A DNA stretch of 48,057 bases, from positions 1 to 48,057 of the forward strand of contig CANAZG010000014.1 in the NCBI GenBank assembly GCA_947365965.1. The letters run 5' to 3'. The notes below the pieces were generated by a model. The model was not told the DNA's origin. It ran no database searches and saw only the letters and a program-made list of their open reading frames with translations. The stretch is from an uncultured Clostridia bacterium (GTDB taxonomy: Bacteria > Bacillota > Clostridia > Oscillospirales > Oscillospiraceae). Below are positions 1 to 8,348 of the stretch, piece by piece; position 1 is the first letter of the stretch; each line of letters begins with the position of its first letter. Both the position numbers and the translations under genes were made by a program.

Positions 1-199
1 GTCGGCAAGGTAGAACTGCCCGACTAAAGCCCGACCCGTCCGGCAGTCAGCCGGACAGGGAACGGCAAAATTTTTACACTTCTTTTACTTCTTTATCTCA
101 CATGAGCAAAGTGAACGGAAAGAAATCAAACCGTTGGATGAAATCCAGATTGCAAACTTTCTGAACACTATCAAAGGGAGCTGTTTTGAGGATATGTTT

Positions 200-1022
200 G
201 AAGCTGTATTCATAAGCGTTTGAGCAGTGTATGGAAATGAGAAATTATAACCATAGCCTCAGCGGAAGAGATGGAAATCTCATAATCTTTGCTGAGCCGT
301 CTGGAATGATTGAGCCAGGAGAGGGTGCGCTCCACCACCCATCTCCAAGGAAGTTTTCCCATTGATGGGGCTTGATCTTCTCTGAAATATCAACATCAAG
401 GTCAAGCTGTTCCTTCAAATCAGAAACGAGAGTTCCCCGATATCCTGCGTCCGCACAGAACTTCTGAACAGATGGATACCGCTCATACGCTCGTTTGGCG
501 GTAGATATTCCACCTTTTGTGTCATGAATATTGGCAGAATGGACCACAACAGACAACAAGCCGCCCAGAACATCCACTACGATATGCCGCTTCCTGCCTT
601 TCGTTTTTCCCCTCCGTCCATTCCGCGTTCTTCGCTGGCTGCTACCGTTTCACACTCTGGGAATCAATGATCGCATAGCTTGGACTCTCCTTGCGTCCGG
701 CATTTGTTCGTGTCTTTTTTACAAGATGCTCCAGGATTTTATCCCACAGCCCACTGATCCGAGCGCGGCGATAAAAACTATGTACTGTTGAATACGGCGG
801 AAAATCATGAGGCAACTGTCTCCATTTGCACTCAGAATCCACCAAATACAGTACTGCATCCGTCAATTCCCGCTTGCTCCACGTGCAGTTGCGCATCCCT
901 ATATATAGTGGCGATATTTCTTTCCGCTGCTCATCTGTCAAGTCGCTGGGATACGCCCCTCGTCCTTTTTCTTCCATGTATCCTATTTTACCACTGCTTT
1001 GTCTTCTTGTGAATACAGGGTC
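200..1022 (-). mobile_element. IS5-family insertion sequence (IS427-like), 823 bp, decayed
   Basis: The ends are imperfect inverted repeats: GAAGCTGTATTCATAAG at 200-216 and, read inward on the minus strand, GACCCTGTATTCACAAG at 1006-1022 (14 of 17 match). A ttt at 197-199 is repeated at 1023-1025. Removing the element and one ttt restores the integrase reading frame across the junction, which fixes both borders and the 3-bp duplication. The transposase stop codon lies inside the left repeat, as is common in IS427-group elements. Assignment to the IS5 family rests on the transposase; the subgroup is inferred from size and layout. The terminal repeats resemble those of the element at 38655-38815. 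Confidence 0.85.
210..977 (-). pseudogene. IS5-family DDE transposase, three frameshifts
   Basis: Starts at ATG 977 (MEEKGRGAYPSDLTDEQ) with the DUF4096-like N-terminal region (CKWRQLPHDFPP, then AIIDSQSVK with the first catalytic Asp). It continues in other frames as KGRKRHIVVDVLGGLL, DAGYRG (second Asp) and [16 protein letters not shown] (catalytic Glu), ending at TGA 210-212. Three frame breaks are visible, at about 648-650, 604-608 and 354-357. Each would be repaired by one extra A (minus strand) in a short A run. All catalytic residues are still encoded, but no single frame gives a full protein. Some IS427 relatives use programmed frameshifting, which could explain one break but not three. 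Confidence 0.85.
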
Positions 1023-1463
1023 TTTATTGTGACCTTGTTCACAGGTATGCGGCAAGGGGAGGTTCTGGGTTTGACCTGGGATTGTGTCGATTTTGATCAC
1101 AGTACAATCACCATCAATAAGCAAATGCAGCTTCACTAGGGGGACGGGATTGATACCTACAAATTTGTGTCCACTAAAAACGGAAAATTCCGAACAATAG
1201 CAGTGGCACCCTCTGTTTTAACCCAATTAAAGCGCCGCCGTAAGCTGCAAGCAGAACAGCGTTTACAGGCTGGCCCGCTATGGGAAGACAGCAACTTTGT
1301 GTTCACGGATGATACAAGCCATCATTGGACCAAACCAAAGGTTTACAGAAGCTTCAAGAAAGCTATTGCCGCCATCGGCTGACCCAATATCCGCTTTCAT
1401 GACCTCCGCCACCCAAATGTCAAGCCCAAGACATACAGGCTTTCCTTGATCGCGGTATAGTTC

Positions 1464-4253
1464 TCAGCTTTTTTTCTTTTTCCGGCACACAGGACAGCCG
1501 CTCCCTTCTGTGCGATAAGCAATCGGCGCATTCCAACGACAACCGCAGGATTGGCAAATCCATCCAACCATCCGCATAGATCTGGGGAGGACCTGTTCTG
1601 GAGTCAAGTTGTCATTTACATCATAATCCCACTCGGCAGCTAAGACCGGATTAAGCGTGGCAAGACAGTTTTCCTTACTGGCTAGTCGTCCATTGCAATA
1701 GGGGCAGCCACTTCCGTCCATTCGGGAGTCGGGTGTGGCTTGCCATTCATGTCCTCTCTCACAGCGCCACCAAACCTTTTTGTTGGAATGTGCCATATAG
1801 GCACTGGGAGGCAAGGGATTATATGTAGGGTGCCACTGAGCGCACAACTCAGGTGAGGCTATGTCCAGTGTGATTCCTTTTTGCAGCCGCTTTGCACAAT
1901 AAGGACATCCCCTTCCCTTTCTTCGATTGCTGACACTGGATTGCCATTCGTGCCCGCCCTCACAGACCCACCAGATTTTTTTACCGCTGCAAGGCGCAAC
2001 ATCCCATGGAGTAAGAGTTCCGTTTTTCTCTGGATGCCACTGGGTAATCAATTCCGGCTGTACCGCAGCCAGGCAGTGTTCAGGAGAAACCCGCCGCCCG
2101 GAGCAATAGGGGCAACCCTGACCGCGCTTACTCCGTTTCATCACTTGTGCCTGCCATTCATGCTGTTTCTGGCACATCCACCAAACTGTTTTTGTACTGT
2201 TTGCAGTCACGTCTTGTGGCGTCAGGTCACCATTTTTGACCGGATGCCATTCCTGGGTCAGCAGAGGAAACACAGCGGCCAGACAATTGTCAGCACTGAC
2301 CTTCAGGTTGATACAGTAAGGACAGTCAGTATGATTAATGTGCCTGCTGTACACACTGGCGCGAAATGTGTGACCTTGAGCGCAAAGCCACCAAACACGT
2401 CTAGGTGAAGTGGCAGTGACATCACGAGAAGTCAGATTCCCGTTTTTTGTGGGGTGCCATTGTGCGGCTAACTCTGCATCAATGGTATCCAGGCAATTGT
2501 CATCGCACACTTTATCGTTTCGGCAGTACGGACACAGATGGGCGACCGGCGTTTTGCTCATGCTATTGGGCGCGCCCCGCCATTCATGCCCCTTCTCACA
2601 GATCCACCACCACCGCTTATTGCTTTGGGGCATCACCTGACTTGGGGTGATGCGTCCATTTCGCGTCGGGTGCCAGAGTGCGGCCAGCTCTGGACGCTTG
2701 GCCGCCAAATTGTTTTCATCCGCAGGGATGCTGCGTATGCAGACTGGACATCGGCTTCCGTTTGGATTTGCCCGGTTGTACAGCATAGTTTTCCATCGGT
2801 GTCCACAGGTAGAGCACACCCAGGCGGCCAAATATTTTGTATTGGGCAGCAGTTCATATAAAGTCTTGTCATTGAGTTCTGCGTCCCATTCTAACAAAAG
2901 ATGGGGGAAGCGGACAGCGGCATTATTGGTGTCTGTGGGAAGTTTTCCAGCACAGTAGGGACAGCCGGAATGCCGTTTGGTTCGGTTTACCACAGTAGCG
3001 GTGAATTCTCTCTTACAGGTTCCGCATTCCCAAATCCCATTCCTGGAAGAACCAGCCAAAACGGCCTCGGGAGGACTGCCGTTCTTTTTGCTCCACTCCC
3101 TGCCCAATTCCGGGAAACAGGCCGCTAAGGAGCGTTGTCTCCGTTCGTGATAGTATGTATTCTCTATTTTCTGATGGTCCTGGATAAAATCCGGCGTGTT
3201 AAAGTATATCACCTCTCCGGTCAGCGCTTCCAGCCAATGGAACACATAGCATATCAGCTGATCCAGCTTTTTATATGGCGCAGGATCATAATAGGTCAGT
3301 ACATCTCCGTCTAAGATAAAGCCGGAGATCGGGTCCGGACTCTCTGCCAGCCAAAGCACATGGCGATACCCCTTCTGGAGTAATTCGTCCCGACGGCGAA
3401 CATCTCGCTTGTGAGCCTCCTCCTGCCAATGCGTATAGCCATGGTGTTCAATGGCGATACGGTAGGAGGGAAGGCAGATATCTATATGGTAGCGCCCCTC
3501 CGGATACTCACAGATACAATCAGGAAAAACCTTGCGAAGGTAGTAAAATAGAGCCCGGCTGGTATAAGTGATTTTGAATAGGCGGGCACAGCGGGGACAG
3601 CCTCTGCGCAATAATGTTCGGTTCGCGATTCGATCCTGCCAAACATGGCTTGGATCAAAATCACACCTCCACCAGACCTTCTGATGGCTGGCCGGAAAGC
3701 ACTCCCGAGCTTGAAGGCCTTCATTCAGAAGGTTGTCAAACTGGCGTGAAAGCTCTGGGTAACGGTCCGCCAAATTATATTGAGGAAAGATCTTTTGCTT
3801 GCTGCAAAAAGGACACAGTTCACCGCCTTTGCTTCGGACCAGTTCAGCAGACCTGATCCGGTCCCCCAAACACGCAGCCCAACGGTTCCTGCACCGTTGA
3901 CAGTACCAGTAAAACTTACTGTTCCTATTTTTGCATTGCTCAGGCTCCACGATATTTGCTTGGAAATCCCACTGGAGAAGCAACTCCGGATACCGCTTTG
4001 TCCAAATATTATCCTTCCACGGTACCCGGTCATGACAAGCGGGACAGTCCAATTTGGCCCCTTTGCGCGTCACTTTATTCAGGCAGCGATTCCATTGATA
4101 GCCGCATTCAGAGCACAGAAATGCGGCTGTGCGGCTGGAGGAAAATCCAACTTGATTTGCCGGAAGAAGATTTGCGCCGGCCTCATAGCAGCGCAATAAT
4201 TCCTCTGCGCTATGTTCGCTGCACCAGTCTTGGAAAGATTTTGTAAAATTCAT
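1464..4253 (-). CDS. Multi-zinc-ribbon (DUF4379-like) protein with an embedded PD-(D/E)XK/Vsr-like nuclease domain
   Basis: 929 aa from ATG 4253. The alternative ATG at 4259 sits directly against the AGGATGG that serves the second ATG. Three zinc-ribbon modules come first (CSEC...CPAC near residue 50, CQRC...CPFC near 120, WWRC...CPRC near 195). A domain of about 120 residues follows (about 230-345) with YHIDICLPSYRIAIEHHG and LLQKGYRHVLWL, the D-(x)n-E-x-H pattern of Vsr/DUF559-type endonucleases. Eight further repeats then follow (W..C..GHEW...CPYC, each with a LAAQWHPTKNG-type leader), ending in a KKKKS tail. Eleven ribbons suggest nucleic-acid binding; the centre suggests cleavage. Actual function is unknown. 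It lies 19 bp after the Y1-like gene and is surely co-transcribed. Codon use is more AT-rich than the chromosome around it, which suggests transfer. Confidence 0.8.
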   Translation of the reverse strand: MNFTKSFQDWCSEHSAEELLRCYEAGANLLPANQVGFSSSRTAAFLCSECGYQWNRCLNKVTRKGAKLDCPACHDRVPWKDNIWTKRYPELLLQWDFQANIVEPEQCKNRNSKFYWYCQRCRNRWAACLGDRIRSAELVRSKGGELCPFCSKQKIFPQYNLADRYPELSRQFDNLLNEGLQARECFPASHQKVWWRCDFDPSHVWQDRIANRTLLRRGCPRCARLFKITYTSRALFYYLRKVFPDCICEYPEGRYHIDICLPSYRIAIEHHGYTHWQEEAHKRDVRRRDELLQKGYRHVLWLAESPDPISGFILDGDVLTYYDPAPYKKLDQLICYVFHWLEALTGEVIYFNTPDFIQDHQKIENTYYHERRQRSLAACFPELGREWSKKNGSPPEAVLAGSSRNGIWECGTCKREFTATVVNRTKRHSGCPYCAGKLPTDTNNAAVRFPHLLLEWDAELNDKTLYELLPNTKYLAAWVCSTCGHRWKTMLYNRANPNGSRCPVCIRSIPADENNLAAKRPELAALWHPTRNGRITPSQVMPQSNKRWWWICEKGHEWRGAPNSMSKTPVAHLCPYCRNDKVCDDNCLDTIDAELAAQWHPTKNGNLTSRDVTATSPRRVWWLCAQGHTFRASVYSRHINHTDCPYCINLKVSADNCLAAVFPLLTQEWHPVKNGDLTPQDVTANSTKTVWWMCQKQHEWQAQVMKRSKRGQGCPYCSGRRVSPEHCLAAVQPELITQWHPEKNGTLTPWDVAPCSGKKIWWVCEGGHEWQSSVSNRRKGRGCPYCAKRLQKGITLDIASPELCAQWHPTYNPLPPSAYMAHSNKKVWWRCERGHEWQATPDSRMDGSGCPYCNGRLASKENCLATLNPVLAAEWDYDVNDNLTPEQVLPRSMRMVGWICQSCGCRWNAPIAYRTEGSGCPVCRKKKKS

Positions 4254-4272
4254 CGTCATCCATCCTATGTGC

Positions 4273-4707
4273 TCACAAGGAGTTTTCAGCGCAGTTGCAC
4301 CCTGCCCACCAGTCAGCCTCCAACTGATTGCCTATGTAATTCTGAATCGTTTGCTTGCTCAGTGCTTTTGTATACAGCAGGCAGCCGTCCGTCCAGAAGC
4401 TTTTACCTTCAAGAATATGCAACAAACCTGAATACCGCTGAAACAATTCGCTGCTGCTTATGTTTTTCAGAGACCGGACCACCTCTAACGGACTATTCCG
4501 CGGATGAATGCTGAGTTGTATATAAACATGGTTCGGGCTGATTTCTAATGACAATATATCAACTTCAAGTCTGCGGCAAATATCTGCAAAGATCGTCTCC
4601 AACTCCCGCCTAAGTATACAAAATGCACTTGTTGCCATATTCCGGGGCACAAGAACGAGTTGGTAATTACAATGCCATACAATGTCTGAGAAGTAATTAT
4701 TTTTCAT
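4273..4707 (-). CDS. Y1-transposase-like (IS200/IS605 TnpA-related) protein with altered HUH motif
   Basis: 144 aa from ATG 4707, which has TTGGAG eight bases upstream; an in-frame GTG at 4716 is less well placed. The order of blocks matches the Y1_Tnp fold: CNYQLVLVPR (beta-1), LEISPNHVYIQL at the HUH strand, SLKNISSSELF, GKSFWTDGCLLY, and IQNYIGNQ carrying the candidate catalytic Tyr and Gln. In active TnpA proteins the HUH strand is HVH; here the second His is Tyr, so metal binding should be weakened. It may be a domesticated or regulatory relative, or a dying transposase. No TnpB/IscB partner is present; the zinc-ribbon nuclease gene takes that place. Confidence is fairly high for the fold, low for activity. 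Confidence 0.72.
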   Translation of the reverse strand: MKNNYFSDIVWHCNYQLVLVPRNMATSAFCILRRELETIFADICRRLEVDILSLEISPNHVYIQLSIHPRNSPLEVVRSLKNISSSELFQRYSGLLHILEGKSFWTDGCLLYTKALSKQTIQNYIGNQLEADWWAGCNCAENSL

Positions 4708-4736
4708 ATCGTCCACTCCAAGATTTTCTTATATAG

Positions 4737-4765
4737 GTTATATCATAAATCTTATAAAAAATCAA
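4737..4765 (-). promoter_or_regulatory. Promoter of the Y1-like/zinc-ribbon operon
   Basis: On the minus strand TTGATT (4760-4765) and TATAAC (4737-4742) are separated by exactly 17 bp, about 30 bp upstream of the start codon at 4707. Confidence 0.6.
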
Positions 4766-4811
4766 CTTTTTCTCAAGCATTTATAACTGATAAAACCGGA
4801 AATTATTATAT

Positions 4812-5042
4812 TTAAATAGAATTATATATGTTGTAATTTAGAGGCCATGGCCTTGTAGAATCTGTGAGAACAATACCTAGCATTAATCCAGGTGAAAATA
4901 TTGGTACAGGAATATATCGCTCTCTAAACAAATAAACTCCATCTGCACTATGACCGCCAGACAAAACTATGAGGCAACCAGAATATCCCCTATTTATAAT
5001 TTTCGATTCCTTAAGATCCAGAAGCTTACTATATAAAAAGTG
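4812..5042 (-). pseudogene. Remnant reading frame of unknown origin, about 76 codons
   Basis: An open frame without a start codon runs from a TAG just before 5042 to TAA at 4812-4814. It encodes segments such as GYSGCLIVLSGGHSADGVYL and SPGLMLGIVLTDSTRPWPL, which have protein-like composition. It probably is the C-terminal stub of a lost gene in the island, but I do not recognise it. Otherwise the 4708-5044 stretch holds only the operon promoter (4737-4765) and AT-rich sequence. Confidence 0.3.
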
Positions 5043-5065
5043 CTATGGCGCAAACCATAGCACTT
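5031..5065 (-). terminator. Hairpin with U-tract (terminator-like)
   Basis: Perfect 11-bp stem: AAGTGCTATGG (5038-5048) and CCATAGCACTT (5055-5065), 6-nt loop. On the minus strand it is followed by TTTATATAG. It could be a terminator, or a structured end of the mobile element. Confidence 0.55.
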
Positions 5066-5308
5066 GAGGGGATTATATCATGTTCTGTTTTCCACTTCCA
5101 CGAGGATGGCTTCATTTTCCGCTTCCACGAGCTTAGGCCCTCTTATGCGGTGGCCGCGATAAAAAGCGGGGACGACATCAAAACGGTGCAGAGCAACTTG
5201 GGACATGCCACCGCCTCCTTTACTCTGGATATCTACGGTCATGTTACTGAACAGATGAAAAAGGAACGTGCGGATCGGATGGAGCAGTTTATTCAGAATG
5301 CTTCCTAA
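5045..5308 (+). pseudogene. C-terminal stub of a second tyrosine integrase
   Basis: From about 5117 the frame reads FRFHELRPSYAVAAIKSGDD, then IKTVQSNLGHATASFTLDIY and GHVTEQMKKERADRMEQFI, ending at TAA 5308. This is the catalytic C-terminus of a Tn916/phage-type integrase, including the LGHA box and the catalytic Tyr in LDIYGHV. The HxLRH box is degraded to HELRP. The overlapping FHDLRH segment also exists in the left remnant (about 1389) with different codons, so the two stubs come from different integrase genes. The stub ends 36 bp before the terminator of the tRNA array, the usual attachment position of such elements. The first 24 codons look non-homologous. Confidence 0.8.
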
Positions 5309-5343
5309 CTCTATGATAAGGAAAACCACTGGTGAAAAGCATA

Positions 5344-5383
5344 GAAAAAAGTCCTCAAAACCTTGCGGCTCTAAGGACTTTTC
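5344..5383 (-). terminator. Terminator of the tRNA array
   Basis: Stem AAAAGTCCT (5347-5355) / AGGACTTTT (5374-5382); on the minus strand it ends in a T run. It lies 3 bp beyond the CCA end of tRNA-Cys. Confidence 0.8.
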
Positions 5384-5385
5384 TA

Positions 5386-5460
5386 TGGAGGCGACACCCG
5401 GATTTGAACCGGGGAATCAGGGTTTTGCAGACCCTTGCCTTACCACTTGGCTATGTCGCC
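5386..5460 (-). tRNA. tRNA-Cys (GCA)
   Basis: Full cloverleaf with acceptor GGCGACA/TGTCGCC, anticodon GCA in GGGTCTGCAAAACCC, T-arm GGTTCAAATCC, and encoded TCCA. Last gene of the array; its 3' side faces the integrase stub. Confidence 0.95.
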
Positions 5461-5470
5461 ATATTAGGAA

Positions 5471-5497
5471 TCAGGAGCAAAAGGACCTTGCTCCTGA
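5471..5497. other. Intergenic hairpin between tRNA-Gly and tRNA-Cys
   Basis: Perfect 10-bp stem TCAGGAGCAA (5471-5480) / TTGCTCCTGA (5488-5497), 7-nt loop and no U-tract. It may help processing of the polycistronic tRNA transcript. Confidence 0.5.
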
Positions 5498-5507
5498 CTC
5501 CCTTTTG

Positions 5508-5583
5508 TGGAGCGGGCGACGGGGCTCGAACCCGCTACCTCCACCTTGGCAAGGTGGCGCTCTACCAGATGAGCTACGCCCGC
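5508..5583 (-). tRNA. tRNA-Gly (GCC)
   Basis: Acceptor GCGGGCG pairs with CGCCCGC; anticodon GCC in CACCTTGCCAAGGTG; T-arm GGGTTCGAGCCC; encoded TCCA. Confidence 0.95.
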
Positions 5584-5647
5584 ATAAATGTGCAGCCTTC
5601 AACGGAATAAGCTGTACTGCTCTCCGGGCAATCCAGCTGCACATGAT

Positions 5648-5723
<76 letters not shown>

Positions 5724-5748
5724 ATATCGGGCGTTCCGCCCGAAAAAA

Positions 5749-5825
5749 TGGCGACCCAGAACGGGCTCGAACCGTCGACCTCCAGCGTGACAGGCTGGCG
5801 TTCTAACCAACTGAACTACTGGGCC
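5749..5825 (-). tRNA. tRNA-Asp (GTC)
   Basis: Acceptor GGCCCAG/CTGGGTC, anticodon GTC in AGCCTGTCACGCT, T-arm GGTTCGAGCC, encoded GCCA. Confidence 0.95.
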
Positions 5826-5856
5826 ATCTCTCCTCCAGAAAATCCAGCCTATGAAA

Positions 5857-5933
5857 TGGTGGGAACAACTGGACTCGAACCAGTGACCCCCTGCTTGTAA
5901 GGCAGGTGCTCTAACCAGCTGAGCTATGCTCCC
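5857..5933 (-). tRNA. tRNA-Val (TAC)
   Basis: Acceptor GGGAGCA/TGTTCCC, anticodon TAC in TGCCTTACAAGCA, T-arm GGTTCGAGTCC, encoded ACCA. First gene of the array, closest to its promoter. Confidence 0.95.
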
Positions 5934-5960
5934 AAGGCTGTTTCCTGAACGGCAAGGGTT

Positions 5961-5989
5961 ATTATACTAAAACACACCCCCAATGTCAA
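5961..5989 (-). promoter_or_regulatory. Consensus sigma-A promoter of the tRNA array
   Basis: Minus strand: perfect TTGACA (5984-5989) and perfect TATAAT (5961-5966) with a 17-bp spacer, 27 bp upstream of tRNA-Val. The consensus match fits a strong stable-RNA promoter. Confidence 0.92.
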
Positions 5990-6022
5990 GCGGTAAATCC
6001 AAATTTTTCAGAAAATTTTCCC

Positions 6023-6043
6023 GGGGGCGGCAGAGCCGCCCCC
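6023..6043 (-). terminator. GC-rich hairpin downstream of the DUF2156-GNAT gene
   Basis: 9-bp stem GGGGGCGGC/GCCGCCCCC with a 3-nt loop, 10 bp beyond the stop codon at 6053. The following minus-strand sequence is AT-rich but not a clean U run. Confidence 0.5.
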
Positions 6044-6052
6044 GCAGACGGA

Positions 6053-7456
6053 TCATACCGTCTTCTCAAAGTACAGAAAGGTCTCGTCCTCCCCGGCCGG
6101 GCGCATACACGACTCCAGCATCCGCCGGGAGGCCTCGTTCTCGTGGAAGCACTTGCCCCGCAGCCGGCTCAGGCCCAGCTCATAGAGGCTCCACTCCGCC
6201 GCCCGGCGGAAGGCCTCCTGCCCGTACCCGTTTCCGGCGAACTCCGGCAGGATGCGGCAGCCCAGCTCTGCGGCCCCCTTGTAGTCAAACCGATAGAGCA
6301 CCGCCTCCCCGATGAACGCCCCGTCCAGGCGCACCGCGAAGTTCACCGCCAGCCGGTTCCCAAAGTCCCGGCGGGCCACCTCCAGAAAGTAGTCCTCCGT
6401 CAGCTCCCCCTCCAGGTCCGCCCGGTAGTCGTAGCCCCACCAGCGGTTGCGCTCATCGTCCAGGCACAGGCGGTTATAGGCCGCCCGGTCCGCCTCCCTC
6501 AGCGCGTCCAGAGTCAGCCGCTCGCTCTTCAGGACAGGGATCTCCTCCAGGAGGGACAGCTCGCTGCGGGTCTGAACCCGGAGCTTGGCCCCCATGTCCG
6601 CGGGCAGGTATTGCAGCTTGCTGGTGCGCAGGCCCCGGTCCCCGGCGTCGTCCTCCCGGTTGATCCACCGCAGGCCCTGGCTGTGGGCGGCGGCAAAGGA
6701 CTGGACCATAAAGGGGTACACCCCCTCGTACTGGGGCAGCCCCTTCTCGATGTGGCAGACCAGGGTGTCCCCGCAGATCTCCCCCAGGGAGATGGCCAGC
6801 AGCTTGCCCTCCAGCTCCACGCACCCGGCCAGGACCCACCGCTTGCCCACCTGCCGCATCAGCTTCCGGGCATAGCACAGCTCCTTTTTCGCCAGGGCGT
6901 CCTCCTTGTTGAACACCTGGTGGAACTCCTCCCAGAAGGCCTCCACCGCCTCGGCGTCCGCCTCGGTGAGGTCCCGGTAGACGGCGTCGGGGTAGAGCTT
7001 GCGGAACTTGTTGATGTGGTTGCGCTGGCCGGAGTAGCGCCGCCCGGCAAAGGCGCTCAGATCCTCCGCCCGGTAGAGGTAGTCCTGCCAGAGCCGGTCG
7101 TTGTCCACGGCTGTGTAGGGGTAGCGGTCCATCAGATACTCCCGCTCCTCCACCGGCACCACGCCGAACCGGGGGGCCGTGCCCTTCTCCATGCACCAGG
7201 CGTCGATCTCGTCCAGGGCGGCGTCAATGTCGCCTTCCCCGGGCAGGGGCACCGGGTAGTCGAACATGTACCCGAAGTGGCTGCTGTGGTTGAGCACCAC
7301 CAGACACCCGTTGGTCTCCGCATACTCGGGGCGCCAGTGCTGCCGCCACATGAGCTTCGTTCCCGCAGAGTATTCGCACAGGCGGTAGGTGCAATGGCTG
7401 TAGTATTTGCGCAGCCGGGCCGCGCTCCTCACTTGAATGGGCTTGAACTCCAACAT
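6053..7456 (-). CDS. DUF2156 (phosphatidylglycerol lysyltransferase-like) - GNAT fusion protein
   Basis: 467 aa from ATG 7456 (MLEFKPIQVRSAARLRKYY). The frame extends to an ATG at 7495 inside mscS, but MLEFKPI is the usual start of DUF2156 proteins. Residues 1-290 form the DUF2156 part (MWRQHWRPEYAE, GQRNHINKFRKLYP, IEKGLPQYEGVYPFMVQ), which has a double acyltransferase-like fold related to the aminoacyl-transfer domain of MprF. Residues about 300-467 are a RimJ/RimL-type GNAT N-acetyltransferase (LKSERLTLDALREAD, ELGCRILPEFAGNGYGQEA, NEASRRMLES). The substrate is unknown; amino-acyl or acetyl transfer to an amine is the reasonable guess. It follows mscS by 13 bp and is probably co-transcribed with it. 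Confidence 0.85.
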   Translation of the reverse strand: MLEFKPIQVRSAARLRKYYSHCTYRLCEYSAGTKLMWRQHWRPEYAETNGCLVVLNHSSHFGYMFDYPVPLPGEGDIDAALDEIDAWCMEKGTAPRFGVVPVEEREYLMDRYPYTAVDNDRLWQDYLYRAEDLSAFAGRRYSGQRNHINKFRKLYPDAVYRDLTEADAEAVEAFWEEFHQVFNKEDALAKKELCYARKLMRQVGKRWVLAGCVELEGKLLAISLGEICGDTLVCHIEKGLPQYEGVYPFMVQSFAAAHSQGLRWINREDDAGDRGLRTSKLQYLPADMGAKLRVQTRSELSLLEEIPVLKSERLTLDALREADRAAYNRLCLDDERNRWWGYDYRADLEGELTEDYFLEVARRDFGNRLAVNFAVRLDGAFIGEAVLYRFDYKGAAELGCRILPEFAGNGYGQEAFRRAAEWSLYELGLSRLRGKCFHENEASRRMLESCMRPAGEDETFLYFEKTV

Positions 7457-7469
7457 AAATAGATTGTAC

Positions 7470-8348
7470 TCACTTTTCTTTTGTGTTTTTTTCATCCACC
7501 AGATGGACGTTGAGGTGGTTGTAGGTCATGGTGATCCCGTCCTCCTTGAAGCAGGCGCGCACCTCCTCCAGGGCGGCGTTGTGGGCGTCCCAGAAGACCT
7601 CCGTGGACGCCCAGAAGCGCACCCGGTAGGCCACGGCGCTCTCCCCATAGGCGGATACCACCACCTGGGGCGGAGGCTCCTCCAGAATGCCGGGCACCCG
7701 GCTCAGGGCCCGCAGGCAGGAGGCCCGCACCGCCCCGGCGCTGTCGTCGTAGGAGGCGGACACGGCCAGATCCGCCCGGCGGACGCCCCGGACGGAGTAG
7801 TTGACGATCTTCCCCGCCACCAGGCGGCTGTTGGGCAGCATCACCCGCTGGCCGTCCACGGTGTCCAGCTTGGTGTGGGTCAGGGTGATCTCCTCCACCA
7901 CGCCCTCCCCGTCCTCCGTGGCCACATAGTCCCCCAGGGTGAAGGGCTTGGAGAAGAGCAGCACCATGCCTCCGGCCAGATTGGAGAGCACGTCCTGCAC
8001 CGCCAGGGACACCGCCAGCCCGAATACGCCCACCAGTGCGACGAGACTGGTCACGTCGATGCCCAGGCTTCCCGCCACCATCAGGGCTGTCAGCACATAC
8101 AGCAGCGTCCGGACGCCCTGCTGGACATACCGGCCGGTCCGCTCCTCCAGGGAGGACCGGCTCAGCAGCCGCCGCACCAGCCCCATCACCAGCCGGATCA
8201 GGAGCAGGCACACCGCCAGCAGCGCCGCCGCCCAGAGGATCTTCTCCACGCTCAGCATACCCCAGCTGGCCTTCATCCATCCCTCCACCAGGGAGGCCGC
8301 GTCGCCGGTCTCCTCCAGAAGGGCGCCTGTATCCACCGTGTTCTCCAT
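7470..8348 (-). CDS. mscS: Small-conductance mechanosensitive channel, MscS family
   Basis: 292 aa, close to the family norm. Transmembrane segments are visible near residues 38-58 and 80-102, followed by the pore helix region ALVGVFGLAVSLAVQDVLSN, with its Gly/Ala pattern. The beta domain (GGMVLLFSKPFTLGDYVAT) and VMLPNSRLVAGKIVNYS then follow, all characteristic of MscS. It would release solutes on hypo-osmotic shock. The N-terminal 35 residues are variable and acidic. The upstream intergenic space (8349-8630) is shared with the divergent NCS2 permease gene; no confident promoter for mscS was seen there. Confidence 0.93.
   Translation of the reverse strand: MENTVDTGALLEETGDAASLVEGWMKASWGMLSVEKILWAAALLAVCLLLIRLVMGLVRRLLSRSSLEERTGRYVQQGVRTLLYVLTALMVAGSLGIDVTSLVALVGVFGLAVSLAVQDVLSNLAGGMVLLFSKPFTLGDYVATEDGEGVVEEITLTHTKLDTVDGQRVMLPNSRLVAGKIVNYSVRGVRRADLAVSASYDDSAGAVRASCLRALSRVPGILEEPPPQVVVSAYGESAVAYRVRFWASTEVFWDAHNAALEEVRACFKEDGITMTYNHLNVHLVDEKNTKEK

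Follow-up and report, generated by a model that had tools for sequence, protein, structure and literature searches.

The nearest known kind of element to the one described here comes from streptococci, where integrative and mobilizable elements (IMEs) with a serine integrase are found inside conserved genes of integrative and conjugative elements (ICEs). In the excerpted text of one report, this holds for 12 of 16 such IMEs, the genes being traG, maff2, and snf2 (PMC5357655), and serine-integrase IMEs within ICE genes also appear in excerpts of two further papers (PMC7168690, PMC5704250). A second related kind is the cis-mobilizable element (CIME), described in parts of PMC7563491 as a unit that is flanked by attachment (att) sites, has no integration genes, and is subject to tandem accretion. 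The subject here is a 48,057-nt stretch of DNA (the window) from an uncultured Clostridia bacterium of the Oscillospiraceae (assembly GCA_947365965.1, contig CANAZG010000014.1), in which a 3.73-kb unit (window 1410-5137), filled by one gene for a Y1/IS200-like protein (P0002) and another for a DUF4379 zinc-ribbon protein (P0001), lies within a tyrosine-integrase gene at the codons of its HDLRH motif. This unit is probably an integrated island made of attachment-site ends and cargo, with no recombinase (CIME-like, or a satellite), that was inserted site-specifically and in which the gene pair is the cargo.

As in the streptococcal IMEs, to the extent that the excerpts describe them, serine-recombinase elements here disrupt conserved genes that belong to other mobile elements by inserting into them. 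They differ in their target, the HxLR(H) codons of a diverse set of tyrosine-integrase genes, and the window unit differs further in lacking a recombinase. The likeness to CIMEs, drawn from the same partial text, lies in att-flanked cargo without integration genes, which in one related locus (L047) stands in tandem with a recombinase-bearing island; in contrast to CIMEs, the window unit has no recombinase island beside it, and its ends belong to islands of serine rather than tyrosine recombinases. Measured against these excerpts, the novelty lies in the target motif, the absence of a recombinase from the unit, and the cargo. Among the literature matches listed, no description was found of islands that target integrase HDLRH codons or of a Y1 plus DUF4379 pair. 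The excerpt of PMC10083194 does not name tyrosine integrases, and in the part of an archaeal-integrase review at hand (PMC8371274) the phrase “within the integrase gene” refers to the attachment sites of suicidal integrases, which is a different matter.

Both open reading frames (ORFs) of the unit are intact and lie on the minus strand with 13 bp between them, in agreement with an earlier interpretation made from the letters alone (the sequence-only reading), which had proposed two neighboring genes of these identities. P0001 (1464-4259) has 931 aa, with 11 DUF4379 zinc ribbons and a central Vsr/EDxHD-like domain, and P0002 (4273-4707, an alternative GTG start being possible at 4716) is a 144-aa protein with HVY for the HUH motif and with Tyr124 and Gln128 retained. 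On the plus strand, the N-terminal part of the tyrosine integrase (1041-1412), which contains two in-frame stops, ends in the HDLRH codons, and the C-terminal part (5138-5308, SYAVAAIKSGDDIK..., PF00589 E 6e-7 within the ORF 5045-5308) resumes where the N-terminal part stops. For most of the 80-aa piece between the two stops, which alone gave no Pfam match, the nearest intact homologues have 54-55% identity. In intact homologues, HDLRH-SYAVAAI runs uninterrupted. The pattern HDLRH[ST][YF]A was read without a gap at 15 of the 16 loci examined, including L143 of the source genome, the exception being the interrupted copy on contig C165. Since intact integrases read through this motif gap-free, the unit interrupts a single integrase gene at its HDLRH codons.

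The left end of the unit (attL, element half; 1410-1433, plus strand, CACCCAAATGTCAAGCCCAAGACA) is shared with many other loci, its first 18 bases (CACCCAAANGTCAAGCCC, with one free position) being present at 19 sites, of which four exact ones are in the source genome, ten in viral contigs, three in other genomes of the family, and two in L047. The search of the family genomes used T at the free position and matched 4 of 400 genomes, source genome included, and a reversed control of the pattern had no match in 400 genomes. Directly 5' of the left end, 16 of the 19 sites have integrase-like HxLR codons, and two (the second site of L047, and L062) have a right end of the window type; a second left end in L063, which has one mismatch and stands behind a right end, is left out of this tally. 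The upstream integrases were identified by eye from the translated motif, with Pfam applied to the L047 integrase and the window pieces alone. Across the 16 HxLR sites, positions -12 (C), -11 (A), -5 (T), and -2 (G) are invariant and the wobble bases vary freely; the four bases immediately preceding the left end differ, the shared feature being the HxLR coding pattern of the integrase. The left end itself cannot be conserved integrase coding sequence, a possibility ruled out because different genes follow it and because it also joins right ends. Three left-end-like sites with two mismatches, on contigs C33, C115, and C129 of the source genome, fall outside the 19-site tally.

The right end (attR, element half; 5099-5137, plus strand) closes with the terminus CTTCCACGAGCTTAGG, a mimic of the integrase target, and right ends of this type recur in five other loci (L047, L062, L063, L066, and L079). 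In L066 and L079, CAT comes directly after the right end and leads, in a translated reading, into an integrase C-terminus; the window has the same arrangement with CCC as the His codon. A hairpin near the right end (5038-5065), terminator-like on the minus strand, is shared with recombinase-bearing islands and covaries across the six right ends, with 98.5% of the pairs kept and two pairs changed on both sides; 4 of 500 shuffles reached the covariation score and 42 of 500 reached this number of two-sided changes, and with so few sequences the covariation is modest evidence. In L047, L062, and L063, a right end is joined to a left end, an arrangement that resembles what a circular form would have as its attachment site. 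A right-end scan of 400 genomes, in which two candidates were scored per genome so that the counts are lower bounds, matched at least five of them, namely, the source genome, G294, and three with short weak matches in which no right end was seen. On contig C6 of G294 (L068/L075), a decayed right end adjoins an integrase tail, and no left end was found; the locus may be what an old insertion left behind.

Because serine recombinases are carried by relatives with the same ends, attachment sites are the best interpretation of these ends. Behind the left end of L063, three large serine recombinases stand in a row on the minus strand, all three recognized by Pfam, and L056, L057, L058, L061, and L064 have such a triplet by likeness. 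Similar series of large serine recombinases follow this left end in L047 and, in part, on contig C165 of the source genome (L074), where by likeness the first recombinase is visible before the contig ends. A serine recombinase of a second, single type is encoded in L063 (410 aa; PF00239, PF07508, and PF13408) as well as in L079, L072, and L073. L063 holds both types in tandem, in the order integrase, left end, cargo, single-type recombinase, right end, second left end, and triplet. The single type was not found in phages or plasmids at E 1e-60, nor, except in the source genome, in 295 order-level genomes at E 1e-80, a scan that scored at most six candidates per genome and thus yields a lower bound. 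The window unit has both attachment ends of this recombinase-bearing family and no recombinase gene inside: its two ORFs are the Y1 and DUF4379 genes, and tblastn gave no significant single-type match in window 1-8000. The same search rules out a hidden single-type recombinase in 4708-5040. An open stretch between the Y1 gene and the right end (4830-5040, minus strand, peptide YSGCLIVLSGGHSADGVYLFRERYIPVPIF...) has roughly the position of the recombinase start in the sister islands, and a region about 92% identical to it is present in L047.

L047, a contig of an Oscillospiraceae assembly, is the only close relative of the unit that was found, with residues 1-46 of P0002 matched; the scan covered one genome per species with P0002 and exact short peptides, and hence reaches close relatives only. 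It corresponds to window 1392-1867, 4146-4239, and 4588-5081 joined together at 94-98% identity, the two internal deletions, with joins across the shared short stretches TCCA and AAAGAT, having destroyed both genes. The similarity between L047 and the window ends near the same outer points, and the two units lie in different integrase genes, as their 400-bp left flanks have no DNA similarity by blastn. No recombinase lies inside the L047 unit, and a second left end with serine recombinases follows directly after it. Mobilization in trans is suggested by the fact that the window unit and the L047 unit both have no recombinase and are in different integrase genes. For two insertions of a recombinase-less unit, trans action would be the simplest explanation; alternatively, the recombinase gene may have been lost after insertion in both lines.

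In the mechanism that we propose, a circular form containing the right end, CA, and the left end (attP) would recombine with the HDLRH codons of an integrase gene (attB), the exchange point probably being the CA of the second His codon or a position adjacent to it. The reaction would be carried out in trans by a large serine recombinase of the sister islands, of the triplet or of the single type (410 aa). Tyrosine recombinases have catalytic residues in their C-terminal part. Insertion at HDLRH would cut the integrase before these residues, and therefore the host mobile element should be disabled. The two genes of the unit would be passengers, with the ribbon array possibly reading the DNA and the Y1 protein possibly binding single strands or hairpins.

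What the passengers do is suggested by the cargo of the sister islands. L063 encodes LmuA-like proteins (PADLOC E 8e-29 and 3e-76). Beside the single-type recombinase, L072 (source contig C63) carries AIPR (E 3e-20) and FRG (PDC-S15, E 9e-29) genes, and L073 (source contig C87) carries HD/dGTPase-like (E 7e-11) and DarG-like (E 8e-6) genes. The cargo of L144 is a STAND/TPR-like protein (nSTAND_NTPase5 E 4e-7, below the cut-off) with no PADLOC match, and L066 has another DUF4379 protein beside a recombinase remnant; a scan with this DUF4379 protein returned itself only. Altogether, three of the five cargoes of short islands other than DUF4379 match defense models and one more is STAND/TPR-like, as counted with no background-rate control and with L062, L145, L146, L055, and L075 omitted, in which there was no readable cargo or only a remnant. 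Since some sister islands carry defense-type genes in the same slot, a defense role is the leading guess for the pair, and by analogy our best single guess is that it is cargo directed against invading DNA, perhaps a DNA-binding defense module. The sister cargo thus lends indirect support to the defense module that the sequence-only reading had listed among its options. A more far-reaching proposal, which we put forward tentatively and consider doubtful as a whole, is that a family of serine-recombinase islands has specialized on the active-site codons of tyrosine integrases, disabling or controlling the integrases of rival elements and carrying interchangeable antivirus cargo, that the HVY-type Y1 and 11-ribbon pair is a new defense cargo which recognizes invading DNA, and that the unit moves without its own recombinase.

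On the island reading, a puzzling gene pair becomes a mobile unit with defined boundaries and an exact model of its attachment sites, within a group of islands that insert into the integrase catalytic motif of other elements and several of which have defense-type genes. If true, the common left end would offer a handle on unknown defense cargo, and the serine recombinases would provide attachment sites tolerant of synonymous change.

Several points weigh against this account or parts of it. No circular form and no excision was observed. The right end occurs once in the source genome, where it is the window's own (up to three mismatches), and its core there reads CC and not CA. One of the 19 left-end sites (L057) is in other sequence, with no recognizable integrase. 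The window integrase and that of L047 show relatedness at the protein level (52-57% in short stretches), so that the insertions are in different but not unrelated genes, and among the many serine recombinases of the L047 genome the best-scoring one is 37% identical to the single type, with partial matches up to 42%. Neither end is present on the contig of L080, a 55% relative of the single type, and thus not every relative of this type uses these ends. With regard to defense, PADLOC matched neither P0001 nor P0002 to any model (E up to 1), and the 271-aa cargo of L079 has no PADLOC match and only a sub-threshold match to a Pfam model. No right end was seen in L072 and L144, and L073 runs off its contig; in L072, moreover, the recombinase has no N-terminus, and the AIPR and FRG genes are located by the recombinase, over 5 kb away from the left end and separated from it by other genes. 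For these reasons L072, L073, and L144 are assigned with less certainty. As a separate observation on L057, the flank of its nonintegrase left end (4119-4136, minus strand) resembles the target in DNA, in the way expected of an off-target site.

The two proteins were also compared with their relatives. In P0001, Pfam recognized 11 stretches of PF14311/DUF4379 (whole-protein E 2e-160), and all eleven CPxC ribbon motifs are retained, which bears out the eleven ribbons counted in the sequence-only reading. The Vsr/DUF559-like nuclease core claimed alongside them has weak support, by structure, as a nuclease-like fold, its Pfam matches being below the cut-offs (MTES_1575 E 0.007, DUF559 E 0.032). 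The AlphaFold model of this putative domain (3156-3614, minus strand; 153 aa; pLDDT 75) is nearest to the homing endonuclease I-Bth0305I (E 0.013) and to Vsr (E 0.037), both with a probability of 1.00 and with no Foldseek match below E 0.001. Where five DUF4379-linked relatives have PEQ, AEQ, or PEY, P0001 has TSR, such that the Glu found in 5/5 of them is Ser, and the ExD of four of the five is EHH, with Asp replaced by His; D45, the Glu of ExD (E56), and the following His (H62) are kept. P0002 matches Y1_Tnp (PF01797, E 3e-21) and, above its cut-off, the NCBIfam model transpos_IS200, and its structural model (pLDDT 84) matches the ISDra2 and IS608 TnpA proteins (Foldseek, best E 8e-10). It diverges from the common N-terminal stretch YHIVFAPKYRR, and the replacement of HVH by HVY with Tyr and Gln kept, as had been noted earlier, is real: H-x-H is present in all 25 alignable Y1 relatives (29 were fetched, and the remaining four yielded no alignment). 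With the CPxC motifs kept and active-site residues substituted, the DNA-reading part looks whole and the catalytic sites of both proteins look altered. For P0001, the likeliest role is that of a sequence-reading DNA binder whose EDxHD nuclease is weakened or lost, and P0002, one HUH metal ligand short, is more likely a binder of single strands or hairpins than a transposase.

The same substitutions can be taken to mean that the pair is a nonfunctional leftover whose frames are open by chance or by recency. This is a serious rival, even if we think it unlikely, and it is further favored by the broken integrase halves and by the deletion of both genes in the second copy; it has to contend with two long stop-free frames (931 and 144 aa) next to an integrase piece that has two stops, and with the conservation of every one of the CPxC motifs. 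A homing-type process, in which the DUF4379-Vsr protein would cut the empty HDLRH site of an integrase and repair or a recombinase would then copy in the island, appears distinctly improbable. The structural match to I-Bth0305I and the second DUF4379 gene in the L066 island, which has the same right end, speak for it, as do endonucleases of phage group II introns, which according to the available part of PMC12350094 (2025) combine CapR/DUF4379/DUF723-like domains with an EDxHD/Vsr domain. Against it, sister islands at the same site hold other cargo in place of such a nuclease, and the Glu shared by all five DUF4379-linked relatives is lost in P0001. The likeness of P0001 to the intron endonucleases extends to the ribbon-like domains and Vsr-like nuclease, but those proteins, as far as that text goes, have three to five domains and a C-terminal nuclease, whereas P0001 has its 11 ribbons around a central domain, and no intron was found by Rfam at the window locus. 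A reading of the unit as an intron or IStron is ruled out, as the Rfam matches over 1000-6000, at gathering scores, were tRNAs only.

Little indicates that the two genes belong together elsewhere. No Y1 gene was found by tblastn with P0002 at any of 29 other DUF4379 loci fetched with about 1.5 kb of flank on each side, nor at the loci of nuclease relatives with similar flanks; over all collected loci (about 1.5 kb of flank around most), P0002 matched only loci of the source genome, the Y1 loci themselves, and L047. Within the source genome, the single Y1 match is P0002 itself. A family sample of 200 genomes, source genome included, contained Y1 in 37, the nuclease domain in nine, and PF14311 in 26; among the matches listed, Y1 and DUF4379 co-occur in at least five other genomes, where they lie on different contigs or are separated by over 100 kb, and the two are adjacent in the window only. 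In the genus, P0001 matched 3 of 25 genomes including the source, the other two matches being partial DUF4379 proteins. Viral contigs gave no match with P0002 or the nuclease domain. Among phages and plasmids, P0002 matched 18 and 371 records, respectively, at 36% identity or less in the 18 and in the best 20 of the 371, the annotated matches listed being mostly transposases or insertion-sequence elements with some hypothetical proteins, and P0001 matched many zinc-ribbon proteins at less than 60% identity. The sequence-only reading had asked whether the pair is co-conserved in many contexts and had named its occurrence only here as a refutation; within the searched data the pair was indeed found only here, the deleted L047 copy apart.

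This bears on the idea that the pair itself is the mover. IS200/IS605 elements pair TnpA with TnpB or IscB. The locus resembles them in its Y1 fold and two-gene layout but differs from them in HVY, in the absence of TnpB/IscB (the partner being DUF4379 plus a Vsr-like domain), and in ends and a target of another type; a short fixed target beside the left end, a trait of these elements, was not found across the 16 sites. That the pair is an IS200/IS605-like transposition unit, with a zinc-ribbon Vsr nuclease in the place of TnpB and a Y1 protein that cuts single-stranded ends, can be dismissed as very improbable: although the two genes fill the whole unit, the Y1 fold keeps its Tyr and Gln, a hairpin lies near the right end, and a recombinase is absent from both known copies, the same ends and hairpin are found on serine-recombinase islands in which no Y1 gene was seen, HUH is broken, P0002 is the only Y1 match in the source genome and none was seen near the 29 other DUF4379 loci, the target is a degenerate integrase motif, and L047 with both genes destroyed suggests, without proving, movement independent of the pair.

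Around the integrated island, the surroundings are those of a degraded mobile region, as had been noted from the letters alone, with integrase pieces on both sides and a relic of an IS4/IS5-family transposase. The relic (245-1136, minus strand) consists of two broken pieces recognized by Pfam (PF13340 E 9e-16 at 642-1136, and PF01609 E 0.003, below the cut-off, at 245-577) and lies at the expected start of the integrase. On the other side, window 5045-5308 (plus strand) forms one 87-aa ORF in which the right end is in frame with the integrase C-terminus, and hence the element end may give the tail a new start. Five tRNA genes (5389-5933, minus strand; five Rfam tRNA matches) lie outside the island directly past this tail, and the interrupted integrase may therefore belong to an element integrated at a tRNA gene.

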